From contig NZ_JAFKCS010000006.1 in the NCBI RefSeq assembly GCF_017255015.1, positions 1-64,000 of the forward strand: 64,000 bases of DNA, in the 5' to 3' direction. How positions within the stretch are numbered: position 1 is the stretch's first letter; every line of letters begins with the position of its first letter. A model generated the notes under the pieces. The model saw only the letters and a list, made by a program, of their open reading frames with translations. It was not told the DNA's origin and did no database searches. Both the position numbers and the translations under genes were made by a program. Of the stretch, positions 16,672 through 28,568 are shown in pieces. The stretch comes from Bowmanella yangjiangensis. Lineage in GTDB: Bacteria; Pseudomonadota; Gammaproteobacteria; Enterobacterales; Alteromonadaceae.

Positions 16672-16822
16672 GGAGTTGTTCTGTCCACGCCCCTGAAGAT
16701 GAGACAGATTTGATTAGAGTTTTCTGCAATGATGAAAGCAGGGGATGACAATTAGACCTGTTTCACCTTAGCGGAAGTGGACACATAGCTTAAAAGATAC
16801 AAACTAAGGGCGTAAACCAATT

Positions 16823-17845
16823 TTATAAACTCCTTAGCTTCCTCACAGATACATCTATCTGTGGCAAAATACCTTCAAGTTCGCCGAATCTGGATAGATG
16901 TTGGACAACATACTTGGCGTAATCACTATTCCCCAGACAAGGTATTCGAGTTTTGTCATTTGCATAATTTGCAGCGTTAAGTACATGAAAAAACTCGGCG
17001 TCTTTGACATGTCCTTTATCCCTTGTATCCAGTGAGAGCTCCGCTACGGCTTGAATACAAGTATCACGACTAAAACGCCGATATCCTTTATATGCAAACA
17101 GCTCTTCTACGTAGCGATCACTTCTTTGTATAAATTTGTTGATAAGCTCGTGAAATAAGACATTGATATCTGGCTTTTCTAACACCAGTAAAAAGGAAGT
17201 TTCCTTATTTTCAGGTAATTGGCTTACCTCGTGGAAAACTAAACGGCCCTCAATAAGTACCTGATTACCTGAACGTTTTTCAATATGTAAAAAACGAATA
17301 TAATGACCATCAAAATAGATCTTGTCTGACAGCATTCTGGCTGATTTAGAAAAGACTGAGATACTTTTTTGTCTATGCTTACTCTGCAGCCTATTTGCAT
17401 GCCTGGACATTAACGGTAAGTCCTGATGGCTACTAAAAGGTGTTGCTGTTTTTCCACCAACGTTCAGTTTAAATAACTCACGTACTTCATGTTCACGAGC
17501 CTTTTTTATGGCTAAAAATATTGTTTGAACTAATTCCGAGGTTGGAATGTTTTTTTCAATTCGCCACTTTCTTCCGTAAACAATTTTCCTTTTACTCTGT
17601 TTTGAAATCTTTCTGTAATTGTCATATCCGACTATCCCAACCTGCACATATAATGCACCATTTTCTTCACCGACAAATATTGGAAAACGAGGATCAAAGG
17701 TACAATCGGCTGCAACTTTTTGAACAGTTTCCAATTTATGTTCATAGTCAAGGTAATGTTGAGGAATGCAGCAGTCCCCTGTTTTGAGTTTTACAATCGG
17801 GGCTTGCTGCATTGGCTTTTCCCCATCATTAAGTACGTACAGCAT
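16823..17845 (-). CDS. Unrecognised 340-residue protein in operon with DoxX
   Basis: I do not recognise this protein. It is basic and hydrophilic, lacks a signal peptide or membrane helices, and has features such as FPIFVGEENGALYVQVGIVG (residues 54-73) and a basic central part (about 140-170, rich in Arg, Lys and Ser). The start may be the Met at 17812 (MQQAPIVKLKTG), which has a GGGGA-type ribosome site; the upstream ATG at 17845 lacks one. It begins five bases after the doxX stop on the same strand, so the two are probably co-transcribed. Codon use is A+T-rich like its neighbours and unlike the moa operon next to it. Confidence 0.75.
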   Translation of the reverse strand: MLYVLNDGEKPMQQAPIVKLKTGDCCIPQHYLDYEHKLETVQKVAADCTFDPRFPIFVGEENGALYVQVGIVGYDNYRKISKQSKRKIVYGRKWRIEKNIPTSELVQTIFLAIKKAREHEVRELFKLNVGGKTATPFSSHQDLPLMSRHANRLQSKHRQKSISVFSKSARMLSDKIYFDGHYIRFLHIEKRSGNQVLIEGRLVFHEVSQLPENKETSFLLVLEKPDINVLFHELINKFIQRSDRYVEELFAYKGYRRFSRDTCIQAVAELSLDTRDKGHVKDAEFFHVLNAANYANDKTRIPCLGNSDYAKYVVQHLSRFGELEGILPQIDVSVRKLRSL

Positions 17846-17850
17846 CGGAA

Positions 17851-18342
17851 TTAATGAGTCTCACAGGCAAGAACATTCAGTTGACTGCGGTTTTTGTTAA
17901 TCTGTACTTTCAATAGCCTGTCAACAGAGAGCTTACCTGCTCCCCATACAACAACTTGAAGTAACAGCAGCCCCCAGATGATATGACCATTCAATGCTGC
18001 CGGGGCAATTTCTTCCAAACTAATGACAGCAACGACATTAACTATGCTCAATCCTATTGCACTAAAACGAGTAGCTAAGCCCAAAAAGAGCAGTACAGGT
18101 AAAATGATTTCGCCCACGGTTGCCAGATACGCGGCAATAACAAAGTTTAAAACTGGAACCTGATATTCGTATTCGAACAGAAAAAGCGTCGATTCCCAGT
18201 CATCCAACTTGGTTAAACCAGAAGAAAAAAAGATCCATCCAACATAAAACCTAGAAAATGCTAAAAACACACTTTGCAGCACATTAAAATGTTTTACGAA
18301 AGAGTCGTAGCCAATTAAAAACTTGCTTAAATAACTATTCAT
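17851..18342 (-). CDS. DoxX family inner-membrane protein
   Basis: The 163-residue protein has four hydrophobic helices and the DoxX signature FSRFYVGWIFFSSGLTKL near residues 30-47, followed by VGEIILPVLLFLGLATR. DoxX proteins are small integral membrane proteins with poorly defined redox or oxidoreductase roles. In many proteobacteria a doxX gene closes the bufferin operon (DUF2282-DUF692-DUF2063-DoxX). Here it lies on the opposite strand about 3 kb from bufABC, paired with an unknown gene, so the link to bufferin is inferred. Confidence 0.85.
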   Translation of the reverse strand: MNSYLSKFLIGYDSFVKHFNVLQSVFLAFSRFYVGWIFFSSGLTKLDDWESTLFLFEYEYQVPVLNFVIAAYLATVGEIILPVLLFLGLATRFSAIGLSIVNVVAVISLEEIAPAALNGHIIWGLLLLQVVVWGAGKLSVDRLLKVQINKNRSQLNVLACETH

Positions 18343-18989
18343 ATATACCCCCTATGGTTTACCAAAAATCACCTGTATTCAGTGAAAACATCACCGGACA
18401 TACGTTACCAATAACGGGTACCCCCTAGTCTGCCAATCGTACATATATTGCAACAAAGCGTCTCAGTGACATAAATTTAAGGGAAACACCAAAATAAACA
18501 TCGGCTCATGGAGAGTTTGAACAACGGCATCCTTAAATTTCCGAACCCTAAAGGCATCTTTTCAATCTTTCTTAACCCGTTGCAGACGCAAAACTGTTTG
18601 TTGTGCTTTTCAACTCTTTCTTTCCCCTAGGGGCCGCGAGTGCCGACGATACCTGGACAATTAATGCTTCACCTTGTCACCCAAGGCCATTGTTATATTT
18701 ACTGTGGTAACGAAAAGTATGTGGAATTAGCAACCGACTTTCTGGCAGTGGCAATGAAACGGAAGTGATTTGTGGCGTTGATTCGTTCAATTCGCTTAGT
18801 GAGCAACACCTCATCAATTGATTGCCAAATTTTATCCACATTGGCCGACCTGAAAATGTAAACAAGATGAGGCTCAACATCTTCAAGCCGGAAGTGACTC
18901 ATAAGCCGCCTTTCCCGGGCATTTAAGCGGGTAATCAGCGGTTACTTTATGCATTAGGTTAACCTGGAGTTTTCTCAAACTGCTTATGC
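18343..18989. other. 647-bp intergenic region without a supported gene
   Basis: The stretch between doxX and the NTF2-like gene is A+T-rich. A 67-codon minus-strand frame (18699-18902, starting MSHFRLEDVEP) has no family I recognise and is probably non-coding or a remnant. The segment 18405-18420 (TTACCAATAACGGGTA) resembles the NarL-type site before narG but with poor spacing. It presumably holds the doxX promoter. Confidence 0.4.
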
Positions 18990-19580
18990 TTATTGGAGGG
19001 GCATGAATTCATGCCCTCCCTTATCACTATCCCAGGTTACTGATATCACACACCAACGGTAACCATCATTGACTAGTTGAAAAGAGTTTATGCCTTTCGA
19101 ATAAGGTGCCGAGGCTGGCGACGTTCTGGATTCATATGCGCTGATAATAGTCGCTGAATGCCCTACTCTATAAACCTTCGACTCGGTTTCAGTTTCAAAA
19201 AAACCAATATCAGAGAACAGTTTTTTGTTTAGTTCAATGAAACGCTCTACCGTCATATCAACAATTCGATGACCGTCTTGGCCATGAAAAACAGGCTTAA
19301 TCATTGCGCTAGGTGCGAAAAGTTCGCGCATCAGTTTCCAATTCCTGCTGTCACCAGGATAACCAGAAACGATTTGATAGAGCACCTGGGCAAACTGTTC
19401 AGGTTCATAATGGACATCGGAAGAACCACAATAGGGGGCCGGAGCTACGGCTATTGGCTCTGCCATTATTTTACCAGGCAGTATAAGAATAATCAGACAA
19501 CTCATATGGCCAAAAACACTGCTAACTCGACACTTCTTCTCATTCCCAAAAAGACCAAACAACACATGCTTAGCTTTCAT
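18990..19580 (-). CDS. Secreted NTF2/SnoaL-like protein
   Basis: The 196-residue product has a hydrophobic segment (MSCLIILILPGKIMAEP, about residues 26-42) resembling a signal peptide, perhaps with the true start nearer to it. The remainder fits the SnoaL/NTF2-like cone fold: EQFAQVLYQIVSGYPGD, then RNWKLMRELFAPSA, VERFIELNKKLFSDIGFFE and the final strand YRWCVISVTWD. Such proteins bind small ligands or are enzymes of diverse kinds, so no specific function can be assigned. It lies alone on the minus strand, with a gap of about 260 A+T-rich bases before the plus-strand tlpA remnant. Confidence 0.7.
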   Translation of the reverse strand: MKAKHVLFGLFGNEKKCRVSSVFGHMSCLIILILPGKIMAEPIAVAPAPYCGSSDVHYEPEQFAQVLYQIVSGYPGDSRNWKLMRELFAPSAMIKPVFHGQDGHRIVDMTVERFIELNKKLFSDIGFFETETESKVYRVGHSATIISAYESRTSPASAPYSKGINSFQLVNDGYRWCVISVTWDSDKGGHEFMPLQ

Positions 19581-19782
19581 TTACCAGCCCCTTTAAAACA
19601 AAAAAACAACAAAGAAAATTATTCAAAAATTTTATTAAACTTTAAAAACCAAACGTCCAAAATTTAAAACCCCCCGTCCATAAAACACACCAAAACCCAC
19701 CCTTAAAGCAATTTTAAAATGCCTTGTTGACAAAACAAATTCAGAGCAATTAGAGTGAATCTAGAAGAATATTCTAGCCCAT

Positions 19783-19795
19783 TAGACAGGTATAC
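19783..19795. promoter_or_regulatory. TAGACAGGTATAC motif upstream of the TlpA-like gene
   Basis: TAGACAGGT followed by ATAC lies about 45 bases before the TlpA-like start. Its reverse complement, ACCTGTCTA, recurs at 26281-26288 (ACCTGTCTA with a final T variant) and 27293-27301, both near the TetR/AraC genes. It may be an operator for the TetR protein encoded at 25555-26139; this rests only on repeated occurrence. Confidence 0.3.
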
Positions 19796-19839
19796 CCCCC
19801 AACAAATTAACCCAACCATATTATTTTTAAGTAGAGATT

Positions 19840-20317
19840 ATGATGAAAAAACTTCTTTTACTGCTTTACGCAATGATGGGATTTCAGGTTCTGGCACAGG
19901 AGTCTGTATTGCCGGATAGGATGCCAAAGTGGGAACTCTACACGCAGGATGGCAAACTAGTGTCGTCAGAACAGTTTGCATTTCTGGGCAACATGGTGTC
20001 CATACTGCAAGCGGCTTCAGCCTGGACTGGATCGGTTAGCAGAGTTATATGCAGATAAAGGGCTGCAGGTTATTGCCGTTAGTTTATCGGAAAAAAATGG
20101 AGCTATGCCCCAATCTGTTCTGATAGAAAGAGGCTTGAAACTTAAAACCCTTATTGATGGTGACGATCTTGGATTACATAAATTTTCCATATCTGGAACA
20201 CCAACTACGGTATTTGTTTCTCCTGATGGAAAAATACTAGGCGCAACAATGCAATCTGACCCTGAAGATCCTCAATGGAATACAGTTGCAGAATACTTAA
20301 CTAATCTCCCTCGGTAA
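19840..20317 (+). pseudogene. TlpA-like thioredoxin, frameshifted
   Basis: The reading frame begins with a signal peptide (MMKKLLLLLYAMMGFQVLA) and the usual TlpA opening (KWELYTQDGKLVSSEQF). The thioredoxin core HFWATWCPYCKRLQPGLDRL with its CPYC motif, and the rest through GTPTTVFVSPDGKI, continue in the next frame. The segment normally between EQF and LHFW (about GKVVL) is missing, so a deletion of 3n+2 bases near 19973-19978 is more likely than a single-base sequencing error. It would have been a periplasmic thiol-disulfide protein, fitting the copper/cysteine theme of the following operon. Confidence 0.75.
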
Positions 20318-20326
20318 TATATGTCC

Positions 20327-20362
20327 AATGGTGAGTTAATCATTCTATTAAAACTCACCATT
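20327..20362 (+). terminator. Terminator after the TlpA-like gene
   Basis: AATGGTGAGTT (20327-20337) pairs perfectly with AACTCACCATT (20352-20362), followed by a short T-rich stretch. It separates the TlpA-like remnant from the YHS/bufferin operon. Confidence 0.6.
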
Positions 20363-20564
20363 TTCTAATCACTAGCATACCAATCTACTTTTCTCTATTT
20401 CTATTACTAAAACATACATAAACCCATCATTTGAAATGGACGATAGGTTTTAATAAAAAGACTATTGAGTCATTTCATTCATAAAAAGCAAAGTAAATTA
20501 ACACTCAATGCTGCAACACTCGTTGGTCAGCAGAATAAATGGTTAAAATACTGAGGAACAAAAA

Positions 20565-21044
20565 ATGAAACTGACGAATATCACAAAAGCTCTTTTCCTG
20601 GCCGCTGGCATGGCTACATCAACATTATCCTTCGCTGCGGACATTGGCATGAATGCTGACGCTAATGACATTGCCATCAAGGGATATGACACCGTTGCAT
20701 ATTTCACAAAGGGTAAGGCAGTACAAGGCTCCAACAAGTTCACCGCAACACATAAAGGCGCTATCTATCACTTTTCATCGGCAGAAAACCGTGATCTATT
20801 CCGCAGTGCGCCAGAACGTTACGCTCCGCAGTTTGGTGGCTACTGTGCAATGGGTGTAGCCCTGGAGAAAAAACTGGATACCGATCCGACCGCATTCAAG
20901 GTTGTTGATGGAAAACTGTACTTGAATCTCAACAAAACAGTTCAGCAAAAGTGGATGACTGACATTCCTGGATACATTAATTCAGCAGAAAACATTTGGG
21001 TCGACATAAAGCGCAAAGATGCTGAAGTGTTAAACGCAGATTAA
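20565..21044 (+). CDS. Secreted YHS-domain protein
   Basis: The 159 residues begin with a clear signal peptide (to about SFAAD, residue 26). The YHS domain spans about residues 38-90: IKGYDTVAYFTKGKAVQGS, then FTATHKGAIYHFSSAENRDLF and YAPQFGGYCAMGVA. YHS proteins are associated with heavy metals, copper in particular, in many bacteria. It is the first gene of a run (YHS, thioredoxin, bufA, bufB, bufC) with gaps of 12-31 bases, so it likely shares their promoter. A periplasmic copper-handling role is inferred from domain and neighbours. Confidence 0.85.
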   Translation: MKLTNITKALFLAAGMATSTLSFAADIGMNADANDIAIKGYDTVAYFTKGKAVQGSNKFTATHKGAIYHFSSAENRDLFRSAPERYAPQFGGYCAMGVALEKKLDTDPTAFKVVDGKLYLNLNKTVQQKWMTDIPGYINSAENIWVDIKRKDAEVLNAD

Positions 21045-21075
21045 TCTAGTCAACCAACGACTAAGGAGCAAAAGA

Positions 21076-21399
21076 ATGCGAGAGATCACAAGTTACGAAG
21101 AGTTTAAGACTCTATCTGCTGAGCGCAATCAGCTATTGGTTTATTTAACTGCAAGCTGGTGCGGCCCATGTAAGAGCTTTTCCCCCGTGATGGAAAAAGT
21201 ATCGGATGCATTTACCAGTATTTTAACAACGGTCAAAGTAGACGTAGATAAGATACCGGAAGTATCCGCAAACTTTAAAGTGCGTTCTGTTCCAACCTTA
21301 CTTATGGTGGAAAATGGTAACGCCGTCGAAGGTATGGTTGGAACTCAATCCTATGAAACAGTAAGTCGTTGGTTGATGAGCAACGTTCTTGTTTACTAA
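21076..21399 (+). CDS. Thioredoxin, CGPC type
   Basis: A 107-residue thioredoxin-fold protein with the active site ASWCGPCK (Cys29 and Cys32) and the cis-proline region VRSVPTLL near residue 75. It lacks a signal peptide and so should act in the cytoplasm, where the bufferin precursor is modified. It is preceded by an AAGGAG site and lies 31 bases after the YHS gene and 24 before bufA. A role in keeping the precursor cysteines reduced for the MNIO enzyme is plausible but inferred. Confidence 0.9.
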   Translation: MREITSYEEFKTLSAERNQLLVYLTASWCGPCKSFSPVMEKVSDAFTSILTTVKVDVDKIPEVSANFKVRSVPTLLMVENGNAVEGMVGTQSYETVSRWLMSNVLVY

Positions 21400-21423
21400 C
21401 CATAGTTATTTGGAGTTAATCGT

Positions 21424-21708
21424 ATGAATAACAAACTATTAGTTGGAGCGGCGTTAACAGCAGTTTTAGCTGCTGGATTTACTGCCCCAGCTCAGGCATC
21501 TGGTAAAGAAAAATGCTACGGCATTTCCAAAGCCGGTCAAAATGACTGTGGCAACTTGGCAGGCACGCACTCTTGTGCCGGTCAGTCAACCATCGACAAT
21601 GATCCGGGGGAATGGAAATTGGTCGCCAAAGGCACCTGTAAAGATCTGGGTGGCATGTTAAAGGATGAAGCGAAGCAAAAGTATAAGGCCTCGCAAAAAA
21701 ACTCGTAG
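21424..21708 (+). CDS. bufA: Bufferin precursor, DUF2282 family
   Basis: The 94-residue protein has a signal peptide of about 25 residues (ending APAQA) and a short mature part with exactly four cysteines, Cys31, Cys42, Cys51 and Cys72, in KEKCYGISKAGQNDC, HSCAG and KGTCKDL. This is the pattern of DUF2282 bufferins, exported ribosomal peptides in which cysteines are converted to copper-binding thiooxazole heterocycles by an MNIO enzyme. The next two genes encode that enzyme (DUF692) and its partner (DUF2063). The family identification is firm; the modification is known from studied relatives. Confidence 0.9.
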   Translation: MNNKLLVGAALTAVLAAGFTAPAQASGKEKCYGISKAGQNDCGNLAGTHSCAGQSTIDNDPGEWKLVAKGTCKDLGGMLKDEAKQKYKASQKNS

Positions 21709-21734
21709 CTCTTGGGGTATAAAGGAGTGTCCAA

Positions 21735-22610
21735 ATGAATTCGCGTAAATTACCTGCACAGCAACCGCTGATTGGTGTTGGTTTGCGACATCCTCACTTA
21801 AAGGAGGCACTGGACACTCCTTCTCAATTGGATTTTGTCGAGGTTCACTCTGAAAATTACTTTGCTCAGGGTGGCCCTCTACACGCTCAACTTGAACACA
21901 TTGCTCATCATTATCCACTGAGTTTGCACAGCACAGCAATGGGTGTTGGTTCAGCAACACCGATGCACGACGATTACCTGAATAAACTCAGTCATTTAAT
22001 TGAGTTAACAAATCCTATCTTAGTATCTGATCATGCCGCTTTCTGTTGGGGAAGTATTAATGGTGCCCCTGTACATAGTGGTGACTTATTACCCTTGGTG
22101 TACAACCAGGAAAATTTGCAAATAATGGTTCGCAATCTGGATCGTATACAGCAACAGCTAGGACGGGCCGTACACATCGAAAACCTGTCTACATACCTGA
22201 CCTTGCCAGGTTCAACGATGACAGAACTTGAGTTTCTATTGTGTTTACATGAGCGTACTCAATGTGGTTTGCTCGTGGATCTTAATAACATATTGGTTAA
22301 CGCATTCAATGCAAAAGACGAGTCCCCTCTCGAAACAGGCATACATTGGATAAAGTCCATTCCCCATAATGTCATCAAAGAAATTCATCTCGCGGGATTC
22401 AGCTCGCCTATCTTGGGAAACATGGCCGTTGATGACCATGCCTGCGCCGTATCTGAAACCTGTTGGTCGCTGTATGCTGCCACCATTGCTCATCATGGTG
22501 CCATTCCCACACTTATAGAATGGGACAACGCACTGCCTGAATGGCAGGTTCTGGTAAACCAAGCAATGCATGCAAGAACCATTGCTTATGAGGTTTTAAA
22601 CCATGGATAA
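21735..22610 (+). CDS. bufB: Multinuclear iron-dependent oxidase (MNIO, DUF692)
   Basis: BufB enzymes are TIM-barrel proteins with two or three iron ions that oxidise cysteines of the BufA precursor. The 291 residues contain the expected ligand-bearing segments: GVGLRHPHL, FVEVHSENYF near residue 40, LSLHSTAMGVGS near residue 62, SDHAAFCW, HIENLSTYL, LLVDLNNILVNAFN, EIHLAGFS and the closing TLIEWDN. All look intact. It has an AAAGGAG site and starts 26 bases after bufA; bufC overlaps its end by eight bases. Symbol given by family and context. Confidence 0.93.
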   Translation: MNSRKLPAQQPLIGVGLRHPHLKEALDTPSQLDFVEVHSENYFAQGGPLHAQLEHIAHHYPLSLHSTAMGVGSATPMHDDYLNKLSHLIELTNPILVSDHAAFCWGSINGAPVHSGDLLPLVYNQENLQIMVRNLDRIQQQLGRAVHIENLSTYLTLPGSTMTELEFLLCLHERTQCGLLVDLNNILVNAFNAKDESPLETGIHWIKSIPHNVIKEIHLAGFSSPILGNMAVDDHACAVSETCWSLYAATIAHHGAIPTLIEWDNALPEWQVLVNQAMHARTIAYEVLNHG

Positions 22611-23370
22611 CCTGAATCAAATGCAACATCAATTACTTACTGATATCTTCAAGCCTCAACCAAACAGCATCTTTGATGCGAACGGATTGGCCATATACCA
22701 GGCAAACTTACGTGCCACAGCAAAACGCGCTCTTAGTATTACTTTTCCCACGGTCAATCAGCTAATTGGCTCAGAGCTACTGGGGTATTTTGCTGATAGG
22801 CTGCTGGCTTCAGAGTTACCTTATCATGGTGACTGGGCACTTTGGGGGAAAACACTACCTACAATAATGAAAGGCCATCCCGCTCTTGCAAATTACCCAT
22901 TCGTTGTGGATTGCGCCGAACTTGATTACCAATGTCATCAATTGTTAAGACAGCAAGACGTTAGCTTTATTCATAGCACGCTATCGCTACTGCACGAATA
23001 CTCACCTGAGACATTGTTCTTACGCCTTAACCCAACTCTCTATTTAATGACGTCAGAGTACCCCATTGTCGACATTCGCAGCGCACATATGCTGTCTTCC
23101 ACTAAACAGCGACAAACTGCACTCCGTCAGATTGTCGAAAATACACAACCTTCTATGCAGTTCCACGTCATGGCTTATAAGAATGGCAGAAATTTACAAG
23201 TTTCTTCTATCTCAAAGCTCCATTTTGACTGGCTCACACTGATCGGAGAACATTCAATCGATACGGCTTTGAATAAAATATCCAATACGGAATTCTCTTT
23301 TCAAAATTGGTTACTGACCGCCTTGCAAGAAAACATAATACTTGAAGTTAATCATTCTGCATCAAAATAA
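22603..23370 (+). CDS. bufC: Bufferin partner protein, DUF2063 family
   Basis: The 255-residue protein begins with the DUF2063 (HvfC/BufC N-terminal) domain: IYQANLRATAKRALSITFPTV near residues 28-48 (key residues Tyr-x-x-Asn-x-Arg), then LIGSELLGYFADRL and HPALANYPFVVDCAELDY. BufC is thought to recruit the precursor to the MNIO enzyme. It overlaps bufB by eight bases, a coupling usual in these operons. The C-terminal half is variable. It is the last gene of the operon; the next genes are on the other strand. Confidence 0.9.
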   Translation: MDNLNQMQHQLLTDIFKPQPNSIFDANGLAIYQANLRATAKRALSITFPTVNQLIGSELLGYFADRLLASELPYHGDWALWGKTLPTIMKGHPALANYPFVVDCAELDYQCHQLLRQQDVSFIHSTLSLLHEYSPETLFLRLNPTLYLMTSEYPIVDIRSAHMLSSTKQRQTALRQIVENTQPSMQFHVMAYKNGRNLQVSSISKLHFDWLTLIGEHSIDTALNKISNTEFSFQNWLLTALQENIILEVNHSASK

Positions 23371-23446
23371 CAATAAAAAGGAGAAATTAAAAAAAGCGCC
23401 TCACCTTGAAACGCCAAAATAAATAGTAAACATTTAAAAAATCAAA

Positions 23447-23929
23447 CTAGGGTGTAAACTTAAATTCAATTCGATTACCACTTGGTTCTCTCACCATCAT
23501 ATGCTTAGCTGGGCCACCATATGCAATTTCAGGTGAAAATTCAATCACAACACCTGGCACCAACTTTAACTTCTCATAAAGATTATCCAAAGCCTCATAA
23601 CTTGTAACTGATATAGCCAAATGGTGTAAACCGACATTGTTTTTTCTATCAAAGCGTTGTGCAGTTAAAGGGTTATTCACTTGCCATAGTGAGATCATAA
23701 TATGACCATCACTAACGAAAGTTGATGGATACTTGGTATTTTCCCCTAAAAATGACCAACCTAAGGCCTCAGTAAAAAAACGTGTTGAAGCGCCTAGATC
23801 TGTCACTGACAAACCTAGATGGTCTAACCCTTGAGTTTGCACAATAGAATCACTATCTTCCGCAATTAAATCAACTGAAGTTAACATAGTTGCAGAGATT
23901 AAAAACACAACAAAAAGTTTATTTTTCAT
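23447..23929 (-). CDS. Secreted VOC (glyoxalase-like) protein
   Basis: I start at ATG 23929 (MKNKLFVVFLISATML), preceded by an AAAGGTAA site, giving 160 residues; the frame is open eight codons further. A signal peptide covers about 22 residues. The VOC fold follows: GLDHLGLSVTDL, FFTEALGWSFLGE, GLHHLAISV and the end MVREPSGNRIEFKF, with candidate metal ligands His and Glu in these strands. A secreted VOC protein is unusual because most are cytoplasmic. It is followed downstream, across two dozen bases, by the PagL-like gene upstream of it on the same strand. Confidence 0.8.
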   Translation of the reverse strand: MKNKLFVVFLISATMLTSVDLIAEDSDSIVQTQGLDHLGLSVTDLGASTRFFTEALGWSFLGENTKYPSTFVSDGHIMISLWQVNNPLTAQRFDRKNNVGLHHLAISVTSYEALDNLYEKLKLVPGVVIEFSPEIAYGGPAKHMMVREPSGNRIEFKFTP

Positions 23930-23956
23930 AGCATTACCTTTATAAATTTTCAATTA

Positions 23957-24490
23957 CTAAAATTTCTTAGCGATAGATACTGCAATAAAATCCAAACCAG
24001 GGTTTGGTTTTTTAAATCCAGCATTGGAATAGTGGAAATACCTTATAGAAAAGGTATATTCATGTTGAGAGCCATACTTGTATACAATACCTATCCTATC
24101 CTCAAACTGATAATGCGTGCTCACGTTTTTACCGGCGAATTGCGTATCATTGAGTAAAGAAACCCCGACTCCAACTTCAAATAGAACAGGGCTATTATTG
24201 AGCAATCCCATTTCGTAACGAAAAACAGGAGATAAAGATAGGACAAAATTTTTGTCATGTTTATTTTGTTCACCATACTCCCAAAAGTTAACACTGGACT
24301 CAAAATACACATCGAATAAAGATGTATACTCATCAAGGAAATCCCCGTGAATTTGATAGGCAAACTTTATTCCTTCAACATTTCCCTCACCGCGAATATA
24401 GTCAATGGAAAAATATTTACCAGAAAGCTGATTTGCGGGCAAATAAGAAGGAATAAAAAGCAGAGAAATTAAAAAAGTATTTTTGAACAT
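23957..24490 (-). CDS. PagL-like lipid A 3-O-deacylase
   Basis: A 177-residue outer-membrane protein (starting MFKNTFLISLLFIPSYLPAN, a signal peptide) with alternating beta strands. The C-terminal active-site motif RYFHYSNAG gives His153 and Ser155, followed by KPNPGLDF, exactly the PagL pattern (His-Ser catalytic pair). PagL removes a 3-O acyl chain from lipid A and alters the outer surface. The start is moved from an upstream TTG to ATG 24490. It probably forms a unit with the secreted VOC gene 27 bases downstream. Confidence 0.8.
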   Translation of the reverse strand: MFKNTFLISLLFIPSYLPANQLSGKYFSIDYIRGEGNVEGIKFAYQIHGDFLDEYTSLFDVYFESSVNFWEYGEQNKHDKNFVLSLSPVFRYEMGLLNNSPVLFEVGVGVSLLNDTQFAGKNVSTHYQFEDRIGIVYKYGSQHEYTFSIRYFHYSNAGFKKPNPGLDFIAVSIAKKF

Positions 24491-24658
24491 CAAACTCAAC
24501 CACAAGATTTAATAAGTTGAGTTTACCATCTAGAGAAAAAGCAAATTATCCAGCCGTATTACTTTTCTAACCATTAATCCAAAACGGATGATATGAATGA
24601 AAATTTATTCAAAAGGAAATTTAAACTATTAATCAAAAGAATTGAGGGGAAAATGAAG

Positions 24659-25489
24659 CTAGGAGTCTCGGATATTTTTAAGCCACTCTTTGGGGGATAA
24701 ACCTAATTTCTTTCTAAATATTCTTGCCAGAGCTGAGCCATGTTCATAGCCGACTTCATTGGCCACAATACTAATTGGTTTGTCATTCTTCAGAAGATTT
24801 TGCGCCAAAGCCAGACGAACATCAGTGATATAGTCCAATGGTGTCTGACCAACTGTTAACTTAAAGCTCTCAGCAAACTTAGATCGCGACATTGCAGCAA
24901 TATCGGCCAATGACTCTAGCGTCCAGTTTTCACTCGGATGCGCATGAATGGCATCTATTACCTTAGACAGTTTTGGATGAACATGCGCAGATAAAATGCC
25001 CTGGTACAATACGCCACTTTCCATGACGCTTCTTAATACCTGCAGTAGAAACACATCACTTAACTTGTCCAGCACAGCCTGTCGTCCAATTTTATTATTA
25101 AATGCCTCCTCAAAGAGCCATTCAGCAGTGCCACCAATTTTTTCAAACTTCTTCAACGGGAAATAAATGAATTGTGGAAGTGAACTAACAATGGATTGAT
25201 AATTCGCCGAATCGAATCTTACCGTTGCGCACACCAATTGAGCACTATGGGATTCATCTGATATGACTCTATGCACTGTTGGGCCTGGCAGAAAAATAAC
25301 AGAGGGCTTGTCCATCACTACCTTATGTCCTTCATTAGTCATGATGGTCAGGGTACCAGCCTGCAACAAATGGAGATGACCACTGTCTTTGCCACCTAAG
25401 GTTTGAATACCACACATGTTACCACTGAAAAAAACTTCAGTTTTGAAAGATACCCTACTTAAAATCTCACTTAGATTATCCACTGACAA
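24659..25489 (-). CDS. AraC family regulator with cupin sensor domain (first copy)
   Basis: The 276 residues have an N-terminal cupin sensor (GKDSGHLHLLQAGTLTIMT near residues 34-52) and a C-terminal AraC domain with two helix-turn-helices (WTLESLADIAAMSRSKFAES and ISIVANEVGYEHGSALARIF, about residues 190-270). It closely resembles the protein at 26324-27133 in the same order of motifs, so the two are paralogs flanking a TetR gene. Regulators with this cupin type often control detoxification or oxidoreductase genes; the target here is unknown. Confidence 0.85.
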   Translation of the reverse strand: MSVDNLSEILSRVSFKTEVFFSGNMCGIQTLGGKDSGHLHLLQAGTLTIMTNEGHKVVMDKPSVIFLPGPTVHRVISDESHSAQLVCATVRFDSANYQSIVSSLPQFIYFPLKKFEKIGGTAEWLFEEAFNNKIGRQAVLDKLSDVFLLQVLRSVMESGVLYQGILSAHVHPKLSKVIDAIHAHPSENWTLESLADIAAMSRSKFAESFKLTVGQTPLDYITDVRLALAQNLLKNDKPISIVANEVGYEHGSALARIFRKKLGLSPKEWLKNIRDS

Positions 25490-25554
25490 TTCAAACCTTT
25501 AAACACATCTAACAATAATGAGTAAGCTCTAGACAAACCCTCATTGGTTCACCT

Positions 25555-26139
25555 TCAAGTTCGATAAGCATTTAAAACTAGCATGGCGGTTGTTTTTGCA
25601 ATTTCTGCAGCATTAAGCATATTGGTGGTATGCGCACAGACAATAGCACCATCAGATAACAAGCTAAGCTGTAGTGCCACTTCATCAGGTTCACGAAGTT
25701 TAATTTCAGAAATCAACTCTGATATATACTGAAGAACCAAGCGTTTATGATTTTCACAAACAACATGAATTGGATCTGTTTTTCTCGGATATTCGGCTGA
25801 GGCATTAATGAACATACAACCGTTAAACTTGTCCGAATTGAACCACTCAGACAGCGCATCAAAATACGCTAATATTCTTGCGTACTTCGGATCACCCTCT
25901 TGCTGTTTTTCAAATTTAGCGACATATTTCTTAATCATCGCCATAAACTCAAGGTCTCGTTTATTCAACGCAGCGACAACCAATTCGTCTTTTGACTTAA
26001 AATGATTATACAAGGTTCGCTTCGCGACACCGGAATGCTCCAAGATAGTGTCTATACCAGTAATTCTGAAGCCATGCTGATAAAATAACTTTTGCGCAAC
26101 TTCAACCAACTCATCCCGTTTACTTTTCTTTACTGCCAT
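25555..26139 (-). CDS. TetR family transcriptional regulator
   Basis: I start at ATG 26139 (MAVKKSKRDELVEVAQKLF), which has an AAGGGG site, giving 194 residues; the frame is open 27 codons upstream. The N-terminal helix-turn-helix is clear: QKLFYQHGFRITGIDTIL, GVAKRTLYNHFKSKDELV (residues 13-53). The C-terminal ligand domain includes a conserved FNGCMFINASAEYP segment typical of TetR proteins that react to electrophiles. ACCTGTCTA-like motifs near its promoter may be its operators. Confidence 0.85.
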   Translation of the reverse strand: MAVKKSKRDELVEVAQKLFYQHGFRITGIDTILEHSGVAKRTLYNHFKSKDELVVAALNKRDLEFMAMIKKYVAKFEKQQEGDPKYARILAYFDALSEWFNSDKFNGCMFINASAEYPRKTDPIHVVCENHKRLVLQYISELISEIKLREPDEVALQLSLLSDGAIVCAHTTNMLNAAEIAKTTAMLVLNAYRT

Positions 26140-26280
26140 CCCCTTTTCCTTATCATTAAAAGTACACCGAACAGTATACACAACAATAACCTTGATGAAT
26201 GAGTTTAAGCAAATATCCAAGCTTTTCTTTGCTGACTAGAGTTGCAAATCCAGTTATTTTCACAGGAACATTAAGCACAA

Positions 26281-26323: not shown

Positions 26324-27133
26324 TCAACGTAACGTTTGAAGCCACTCTCTGGGGGACATCCCCAGTTTCTTGCGAAAAACCCTCGCCAACGCAGAACCAT
26401 GTTCATAACCTACTTCGCCAGCTACAAATCCAATTGATTTGTTCTTCTTCAACAACTTTTGCGCCAACCCCAGTCGAATATCGGTTATATAGTCATTCGG
26501 TGTTTGGCCAATTACACGCCGAAAACTTGCTGCGAATTTAGACCGGGACATGGCTGCAATACTTGCTAGGGACTCCACTGTCCAGTTTTCGGCTGGCTTG
26601 CCATGTATGACTTCTATTACTTTTGACAACTGCGGATGGGTCGCCGCTGATAGCACACCTTGCAAAATAACACCGTTTTGTGTGGCCTCGCGCAACACCT
26701 GCAGAATGAAAATATCGCTAAGTCTCTCGATCATCGTTTGACGACCAAATCGCTCTTCGAACACCTCATTGAATAGCCATTGAATTGTATTGGTGACTGT
26801 GCTGTTTTGACATAACTCGAAATAAATGAAACTCGGCATAGCATTAACTAATGCCGCACCCATTGAATCAAGCTTAATTGCAGCACTGACCAATTTAGGC
26901 GGATCTGAGTCCTGACTAACTAATGTGTGAATACAGTTAGAAGGAAAGAACAGCACACACGGCTTACACACATCTAATTTCCGGTGCCCACGGCATGTCA
27001 GGCTGAGCGAACCAGACTCAATTAAATGGATAAATCCACTCCCATCAAAGTGTTTAGTCCCATACAACTCTCCAGCAAAAACCACATCAGCTTGCAGAGA
27101 AATCTGGCTCAGGATTTCATTTAATGTATCCAT
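26324..27133 (-). CDS. AraC family regulator with cupin sensor domain (second copy)
   Basis: A 269-residue paralog of the regulator at 24659-25489. The N-terminal cupin part (GSGFIHLIESGSLSLTCRG near residues 31-49) is diverged, but the AraC DNA-binding half is nearly the same: WTVESLASIAAMSRSKFAAS, IGQTPNDYITDIRLGLAQKL and VGYEHGSALARVFRKKLGMS. Two copies around a TetR gene suggest a local duplication. It is transcribed away from the long gene-free stretch to its right, where its promoter should lie. Confidence 0.85.
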   Translation of the reverse strand: MDTLNEILSQISLQADVVFAGELYGTKHFDGSGFIHLIESGSLSLTCRGHRKLDVCKPCVLFFPSNCIHTLVSQDSDPPKLVSAAIKLDSMGAALVNAMPSFIYFELCQNSTVTNTIQWLFNEVFEERFGRQTMIERLSDIFILQVLREATQNGVILQGVLSAATHPQLSKVIEVIHGKPAENWTVESLASIAAMSRSKFAASFRRVIGQTPNDYITDIRLGLAQKLLKKNKSIGFVAGEVGYEHGSALARVFRKKLGMSPREWLQTLR

Positions 27134-28025: not shown

Positions 28026-28568
28026 TTAGTTTGGATTGACAACAGGAAAGTCTATATCCGTTTTCATTACTTCATTGATGTAATTTGTCCAGGTATTGAG
28101 AGCAACATGTTGAACAATTTCAATGAGTTGATCTTCGCTATAACCAGCGGAGCGCACAGCTTCAAGATCATCCGCACTCACTTGTCCTCGGTTTCGAGCG
28201 ACTTTAGCAGCGAAATTAACTGCAGCATCGGCAATGGTGTCTTGTGAACCTCCTTTGCGGTTCAACAATATTTCGGCATCAGACAACTTGGCCAAATTTT
28301 TGGCTAAATATGTATGTGCAGACAGGCAATAGGAACAACCGTTAATTTCCGCAACAACAAGGGCAATCCTCTCACGGGTTGCAGCCGATAGATTGCCTTT
28401 AGACAATGCGCCGGACATTGCAAGATACCCCTCCAACGCCACTGGGCTTTTAGATACCAGGCGGAACAAATTAGGTACGACGCCTAACTGTTGGTTGACA
28501 GCTTCAAGCATGGCTTGGGATTGTTCGGGTGCTTCGGCAATAGATTTAGGAATAGTAATACGTGACAT
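28026..28568 (-). CDS. AhpD-like carboxymuconolactone decarboxylase family protein
   Basis: The 180-residue protein has the CMD/AhpD core with INGCSYCLSAH: Cys78, Cys81 and His85, the redox-active pair and proton-relay residue. Such proteins act as peroxidase-related thiol proteins. The rest is helical, ending with VALNTWTNYINEV. It is divergent from a LysR gene 111 bases away, the usual arrangement of a LysR regulator and its target. Confidence 0.88.
   Translation of the reverse strand: MSRITIPKSIAEAPEQSQAMLEAVNQQLGVVPNLFRLVSKSPVALEGYLAMSGALSKGNLSAATRERIALVVAEINGCSYCLSAHTYLAKNLAKLSDAEILLNRKGGSQDTIADAAVNFAAKVARNRGQVSADDLEAVRSAGYSEDQLIEIVQHVALNTWTNYINEVMKTDIDFPVVNPN

Follow-up and report, generated by a model that had tools for sequence, protein, structure and literature searches.

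The window analyzed here, a stretch of 64,000 nucleotides (positions 1 to 64,000 of contig NZ_JAFKCS010000006.1) from Bowmanella yangjiangensis, harbors a five-gene bufferin operon that is a real and recurrent variant of known bufferin clusters. It probably represents a variety of Buf1-type operon, found mainly in marine gammaproteobacteria, that carries its own thiol reductase and is wired to an RclR-like thiol switch. The operon spans 20565-23370 and consists of five co-oriented open reading frames on the plus strand. These encode a YHS protein, a thioredoxin (Trx) with a CGPC motif, the DUF2282 precursor BufA, the MNIO maturase BufB, and its DUF2063 partner BufC. Gaps of 31, 24, and 26 bp are followed by an 8-bp overlap between BufB and BufC, and all five products score above the curated Pfam cut-offs in a profile search (Table 1). 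An original prediction, made from the sequence alone, had described this run of genes, and its exact span, families, and spacing were all confirmed.

The assignment as a bufferin system, also part of that prediction, is supported by the families, the gene set, and the four cysteines of BufA. These cysteines are kept in 103 of 103 aligned BufA sequences, namely those found directly upstream of BufB in the 113 loci described below, and the N terminus of BufA, as read by eye, contains a hydrophobic segment ending in AQA. BufB shares 57 invariant columns in an alignment of 18 sequences. It reaches 290.2 bits with the NCBI BufB model NF050167, which is its best named NCBIfam model, narrowly missing the cut-off of 310; the system is therefore described as a divergent variant of the Buf1 bufferin cluster.

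The order [AraC regulator]-YHS-(Trx)-BufA-BufB-BufC-DoxX recurs in marine gammaproteobacteria. The search for BufB relatives covered 394 genomes of the order, 369 of the class, and 395 of the family, and from a further scan of named genome contigs the 80 best of 557 confirmed places were kept. In the order, 26 of the 394 genomes hold 27 places that match with at least 219 bits. The class sample is sparse: only the genome of the window and a single other genome, from its family, contain matches of this strength, and the next three reach 206-209 bits. The 80 best of the 557 places include relatives of 47-55% identity from Oceanospirillales and Pseudomonadales as well; the group thus extends beyond the order of the window. 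Of 27 loci (the window and L062-L087), 25 encode YHS, 22 the AraC regulator, and 13 Trx; none of these three was found in 14 outside loci (L088-L101), three of which contain HvfB-type MNIOs. For counting, 121 loci (the window, 40 others, and the best 80 of 557) were reduced to 113 by dropping eight duplicates, and the 99 in which the BufB start is flanked by 3 kb or more upstream and 2.5 kb or more downstream were kept. YHS is encoded in 61 of these, Trx in 31, the AraC regulator in 50, and DoxX downstream of BufC in 83, values that are not population frequencies because the loci were chosen by likeness to the BufB of the window. All 31 Trx genes lie in loci with YHS, and the regulator accompanies 47 of the 61 loci with YHS versus 3 of the 38 without. 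Herein, a Trx had to be co-oriented, at most 2.5 kb upstream, and above 60 bits, which leaves a Trx-like reading frame of L157 (39 bits) uncounted.

Since the same order recurs in many genomes, as a search proposed in the original prediction could establish, the combination is more than chance, and the idea that it is unique to the window was rejected. The earlier statement that it is less usual than a plain bufABC set needs qualifying, for among the nearest BufB relatives, most of them from marine gammaproteobacteria, the YHS form is the commoner one (61/99). Named carriers of this form include Colwellia, Cognaticolwellia, Alteromonas, Psychromonas, Moritella, Marinobacterium, Endozoicomonas, and Thalassolituus. 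The Burkholderiales loci of the set mostly show the plain order A-B-C-DoxX, and one of them, L173, has a downstream YHS gene. A BufB tree of 107 rows requires at least 9 state changes for YHS, 12 for Trx, and 11 for the AraC regulator; hence, the parts come and go. One place in genome G033 (L267/L229) exhibits AraC-YHS-Trx-BufA-DoxX with neither BufB nor BufC in the stretch seen, and G033 holds a complete bufferin cluster elsewhere.

The regulator associated with these operons combines Cupin_6 and AraC domains. RclR is its best named NCBIfam model (NF040475), with 108.1 bits relative to a cut-off of 400, and it is therefore named RclR-like only; its identity to RclR of Escherichia coli is 29%. 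It contains two cysteines (GNMCG and LVCAT), a pair that 49 of the 56 linked regulators carry. The seven without the full pair are the second copies in the window, L067, L068, L122, and L130 (truncated), as well as L066 (unreadable letters) and L148, which has the second cysteine only. In the second copy of the window, Tyr and Ser occupy the two places. Seven regulators had been taken as unlinked, comprising five distant ones together with L227 and L229, of which L229 proved to be adjacent to YHS-Trx-BufA; L227 and L229 carry both cysteines. The first cysteine occurs in none of the five distant, nonbufferin Cupin_6 regulators. The Cys89-type residue by itself was rejected as a mark of redox sensing, being present in all five. 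RclR is activated through oxidation of Cys21 and Cys89 (PMC7464077). A putative RclR-like control of the operon is thus supported by its anatomy.

Upstream of YHS, a shared motif, TGGACGATTGGgTTCAA, was found de novo in 51 nonredundant sequences. Its log-likelihood is 190.9 compared with 38.6-46.3 in four shuffled sets (width 12; 60 restarts for the data and 25 for the four sets, in which two-base blocks were shuffled). The 20-base site of the window scores 18.9 bits, a value reached by none of 60 Markov-simulated windows (best 18.7), with a matrix built from 32 sites that it later scores, the site of the window among them. A site of at least 11 bits is held by 35 of 52 upstream sequences. Part of these loci repeat the motif at a distance of 21 bp: in the 35 loci, the second half-site at +21 has a mean score of 3.3 compared with -21.6 at other offsets, and it reaches at least 2 bits in 15 loci compared with 0.0 per other offset (z 6.9). 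AraC-family dimers bind direct half-sites two helical turns apart. The motif is associated with the regulator, occurring in 31 of 35 loci that have one versus 1 of 14 that do not (Fisher p ~1e-7, with relatedness left in and the presence mark of 9 units chosen after the scores were seen). Genome-wide, the 12-mer with one mismatch was counted against its reversed control, giving 23/40 in G000, 17/18 in G033, 13/33 in G198, 18/31 in G035, and 10/32 in G118; only in G202 (24/16) is it the commoner one. As it is no more frequent than the control in five of six genomes, there is no basis for claiming a wider regulon. Exact copies stand upstream of YHS in G118, G198, and G035. Others, away from such operons, are found on contig C112 of G000, as a second copy in G035, and once in G202, inside a gene ~1 kb before its second AraC gene; the site of the window has two mismatches to the 12-mer. 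A weaker match of 11.8 bits at 19640-19659 on the minus strand lies ~60 bp before the gene of an unnamed exported protein (18990-19580, minus strand); for scale, simulated windows hold 0 to 5 matches of at least 11 bits.

The Trx of the window has the active site WCGPC and, as judged by eye, no signal peptide. It scores 87.6 bits with the equivalog model TIGR01068, below the cut-off of 96.8. In a tree that joins the 33 operon Trx with 19 of 21 nonoperon Trx matches from nine genomes, a single supported branch (96/91, in 94% of the bootstrap trees) separates the two groups, with several long branches, that of the window included, about which the tree tool gave a warning. CGPC is present in 28 of the 33 operon Trx. 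The position six before the first cysteine, presumably Asp26 of E. coli thioredoxin, is Asp or Glu in all 19 nonoperon proteins versus Asp in 8 of the 33 operon proteins; it is Tyr in the window, and 25 of the 33 lack the buried acid. These features render it a good candidate for a Trx dedicated to the bufferin operon. That it keeps the cysteines of the BufA precursor reduced, as originally predicted, is plausible by analogy with HvfBC: in vitro, a reductant is needed for the substrate thiols and the iron cofactor, and oxidized HvfA is unreactive (PMC13419390). A dedicated reductant would hence be sensible, which is not proof for the operon Trx.

The YHS protein is exported and has a single cysteine, Cys94 in GGYCA, which is invariant in 29 of 29 aligned proteins. 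Of 59 relatives, 17 have a member of the family at E <= 0.001, 16 of them over the cut-off, and it is often distant from bufferin genes. In L279 and L288, YHS is divergent from a two-cysteine regulator, with no bufferin gene in ~1.4 kb, which ties YHS to the regulator rather than to copper. For the earlier suggestion that YHS handles periplasmic copper, no evidence was found. A YHS domain protein appears in a review table of selenoproteins (PMC9312934), and this, together with the NCBI name "YHS domain-containing (seleno)protein", gives a hint of a redox role rather than simple metal binding. The structure model of YHS has a predicted local distance difference test (pLDDT) score of 65.8; it gave no fold match in the PDB at E <= 0.001, and no PDB sequence matched better than E 0.15. 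The YHS proteins of Glaciecola-type loci (L152, L160, L163, and L168) contain, as seen by eye, a lipobox-like cysteine near the N terminus and may therefore be lipoproteins.

Taken together, these parts suggest the following mechanism. The RclR-like activator would sense thiol oxidation, caused by hypohalous acids or driven by copper, through its two reactive cysteines and would bind the two direct half-sites 21 bp apart before YHS. The resulting transcript would supply the exported single-cysteine YHS, the cytoplasmic Trx, the BufA precursor, and the maturase pair BufB/BufC. Trx would keep the core cysteines of BufA as thiols, restore the iron site of BufB to its active mixed-valent state, or both, timed to when the cytosol undergoes oxidation. 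BufBC would then convert the two central cysteines of BufA into copper-binding thiooxazoles, and mature BufA would pass via Sec to the periplasm and buffer copper. Beside it, YHS might act as a cysteine-based handler of redox or metal. The interpretation originally given to the operon is thereby partly supported; regulator, operator, and DoxX were not mentioned in it. How Sec-exported precursors of ribosomally synthesized and post-translationally modified peptides keep their cysteines reduced until an oxygen-using enzyme modifies them, and which electron donor such MNIOs use in cells, are questions for which the operon Trx, with its own lineage, offers a concrete candidate. Moreover, a thiol-switch–like regulator together with a defined candidate operator brings the inducing signal within reach of experiments and connects copper peptides with oxidant defense; bufferins may answer oxidants as well as copper.

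A broader reading, held only tentatively, is that marine gammaproteobacterial bufferins are part of a thiol-oxidant regulon of the hypohalous acid/HOSCN type, in which an RclR-like two-cysteine activator would read oxidation via a 21-bp direct-repeat operator and switch on the peptide copper buffer along with a private Trx lineage, the latter keeping the oxidative maturase and its cysteine substrate functional during oxidation of the cytosol. The core of the module would herein be regulator plus YHS, which is also found alone, and the bufferin genes would have been recruited to it. YedY is here taken to be MsrP. In Caulobacter, SigF controls the bufferin genes and a YedY-type sulfoxide reductase pair (PMC3511200, PMC8224329), and MsrPQ of E. 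coli is under an HOCl-sensing system (PMC7527725); for the mechanism proposed above, this provides an independent hint of an association between bufferins and oxidant repair.

Several observations weigh against an oxidant-controlled operon with a dedicated Trx. The regulator scores far under the RclR cut-off, and in the alignment with RclR the Cys89 column is shared, with its first cysteine three columns off Cys21. The two-cysteine regulator of the window is located 1.3 kb downstream of the operon. A strict pairing of regulator and YHS is contradicted by L214, where YHS stands beside a regulator without the first cysteine, and by L227, a two-cysteine regulator with neither YHS nor bufferin genes in its stretch. 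Half-site 2 of the window is weak (0.3, under the 2-bit mark), four regulator loci (L123, L127, L146, and L149) are without the motif, and the motif was not found before rclA of E. coli. The link between motif and regulator draws on related loci and on a mark set post hoc, and a test of independent pairs yielded only three starred pairs and was not significant. Co-transcription of the five genes is suggested by their spacing alone, since scanning for consensus promoters revealed no sigma-70-like site on the plus strand in 20317-20565 and no excess of promoter-like sites over 19500-25700 (13 found versus 15.3 expected). Lastly, Trx is missing from 30 of the 61 loci with YHS and changes state 12 times on the BufB tree; hence, it is not essential.

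Among the alternatives, it is somewhat unlikely that this is a plain copper-induced bufferin operon, in which the regulator would sense copper or a copper-thiol product, YHS and Trx would be general helpers against copper damage, and chlorine oxidants would have no part. Known bufferin operons are responsive to copper or gold (PMC8224329, PMC5413113), a further point against oxidant control, and the two regulator cysteines could bind Cu(I). On the other hand, the closest named regulator model is RclR, with no copper regulator among the best 25 of 27 NCBIfam matches, and a related Microbulbifer MNIO cluster is not copper-induced (PMC12538549). More doubtful is that Trx serves YHS or, by resetting a disulfide, the regulator instead of BufA and BufB. 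Being encoded directly after YHS and found only with it (31/31), Trx could serve YHS rather than BufB, and the conserved cysteine pair of the regulator would need re-reduction; however, YHS is exported and Trx lacks a signal peptide, and the AraC-YHS pairs of L279 and L288 show no Trx within ~1.4 kb. That Trx and YHS are stress genes only loosely tied to the cluster with which they travel, ordered by horizontal transfer of a stress island with no joint mechanism, would fit the 9 to 12 state changes and the low G+C and same-genus absence described below, but is improbable in view of the recurrent order and direction, the short gaps, and a Trx lineage apart from the other sampled Trx.

Table 1. 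Positions of the bufferin operon, its candidate operator, and surrounding features in the window.
Feature	Position	Strand	Evidence or remark
Unnamed protein F15, 340 amino acids, paired with DoxX	16823-17845	-	Adjoins DoxX
DoxX protein	17851-18342	-	PF07681, 62 bits; NF050144, 57 bits (cut-off 80)
Split TlpA-like gene (two frames) for an exported thioredoxin	19840-20317	+	Redoxin (19976-20314 piece scanned)
Putative operator half-site 1 (TGGACGATAGG)	20437-20447	+	Begins 128 bp before YHS start; de novo motif
Putative half-site 2 (AAGACTATTGA)	20458-20468	+	21 bp past half-site 1; degenerate in the window
YHS protein, exported, with one Cys (GGYCA)	20565-21044	+	PF04945, 33.8 bits (cut-off 30.3); NF041384, 161.2 (cut-off 70)
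Cytoplasmic Trx, CGPC, Tyr at buried-Asp place	21076-21399	+	PF00085, 78.9 bits (cut-off 23.5)
BufA, Buf1 (DUF2282) precursor, four Cys	21424-21708	+	PF10048, 86.8 bits (cut-off 22.4)
BufB, MNIO (DUF692) maturase	21735-22610	+	PF05114, 270 bits (cut-off 25)
BufC, DUF2063 partner protein	22603-23370	+	PF09836, 38.9 bits (cut-off 27.2)
RclR-like AraC/Cupin_6 regulator, Cys pair (GNMCG, LVCAT)	24659-25489	-	PF12852, PF12833
TetR regulator	25555-26220	-	PF00440
Second AraC/Cupin_6 paralog without Cys pair	26324-27133	-	51% identity to the first

In the window, DoxX is apart from the operon and inverted, as opposed to its place after BufC in 83 of the 99 loci. The adjoining F15 has no Pfam or NCBIfam match, and its model is confident (pLDDT 85.9), yet without a PDB fold match at E <= 0.001. 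F15 also adjoins DoxX in L062, L067, L068, L126, and L130, and relatives lie near bufferin clusters in L126, L153, L164, and L173. The split TlpA-like gene is either a pseudogene or the result of a sequencing error; relatives (F25) are encoded downstream of BufC in L067, L068, L122, L123, and L130. In the window, F15, DoxX, the split gene, and the first regulator share ~8.9 kb (16672-25554) between MoaE and TetR with the operon and two other genes. In the same-genus genome G002, a TetR homolog of 79% identity directly follows MoaE, and the TetR gene is possibly chromosomal backbone; TetR relatives also occur near the cluster in L062, L067, and L068. In the stretches seen of G001, G003, and G004, MoaE is followed by other genes or there is no such TetR. 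The 16-27 kb segment has a G+C content of 0.411 versus 0.486, and no BufB relative was found at E <= 1e-50 in the four same-genus genomes (G001-G004). Because of this absence, the low G+C, and the arrangement in G002, the cluster was likely gained by transfer or lost in the relatives. A genome of the same family, G210, has the same BufB as Neptunicella marina L109, a genus of Alteromonadaceae, which is thus the probable family of the window. Within ~6 kb of L097 (G000:C35), the second MNIO of its genome, no relatives of DUF2282, YHS, Trx, or DoxX were found, and similar loci exist in G001 and G002. A carboxymuconolactone decarboxylase family gene (28026-28568, minus strand) is located near the second AraC gene, and in L285 such a gene is close to YHS; RclR of Pseudomonas aeruginosa drives an AhpD-like gene (PMC7950407).

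Among the matches listed in the literature searches, which covered open-access papers without their supplements, no paper unites these parts. The main text of the study on the MNIO landscape (PMC12452194) contains no mention of thioredoxin, YHS, or AraC and reports further conserved genes in bufferin clusters at extremely low proportions; unnamed transcriptional regulators frequently co-occur according to PMC13097082. The RclR-rclABC system of E. coli resembles that of the window in its Cupin_6 and AraC helix-turn-helix regulator with two cysteines, transcribed divergently from a small operon whose products include an exported protein and a small membrane protein, and RclA is a Cu(II) reductase (PMC7464077, PMC7527725). 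It differs in its target genes and in the lack of the motif before rclA, and the regulators are distant (108 versus 400 bits, 29% identity). RclR-rclX of P. aeruginosa likewise has an RclR-type regulator beside a thiol-redox gene, but the target is the AhpD-like protein and there is no bufferin operon (PMC7950407). The thiooxazole system HvfABC shares an MNIO with a partner protein acting on a cysteine-rich precursor and the need for a reductant in vitro (PMC13419390, the main text of which does not mention thioredoxin); its precursor, however, is of another family, the EGKCG type (PMC12452194). Closest are the Buf1 clusters (bufABC-doxX and the gig operons; for example, in Caulobacter vibrioides), which share the DUF2282 precursor with four cysteines and, in the window, a putative signal peptide, the MNIO, the DUF2063 partner, DoxX, and the order A-B-C-(DoxX) (PMC12452194). 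Unlike in these clusters, no sigma factor or NrsF is among the Pfam matches of the scanned neighboring genes of the window, and to the shared set the system of the window adds YHS, Trx, and the AraC/Cupin_6 regulator.

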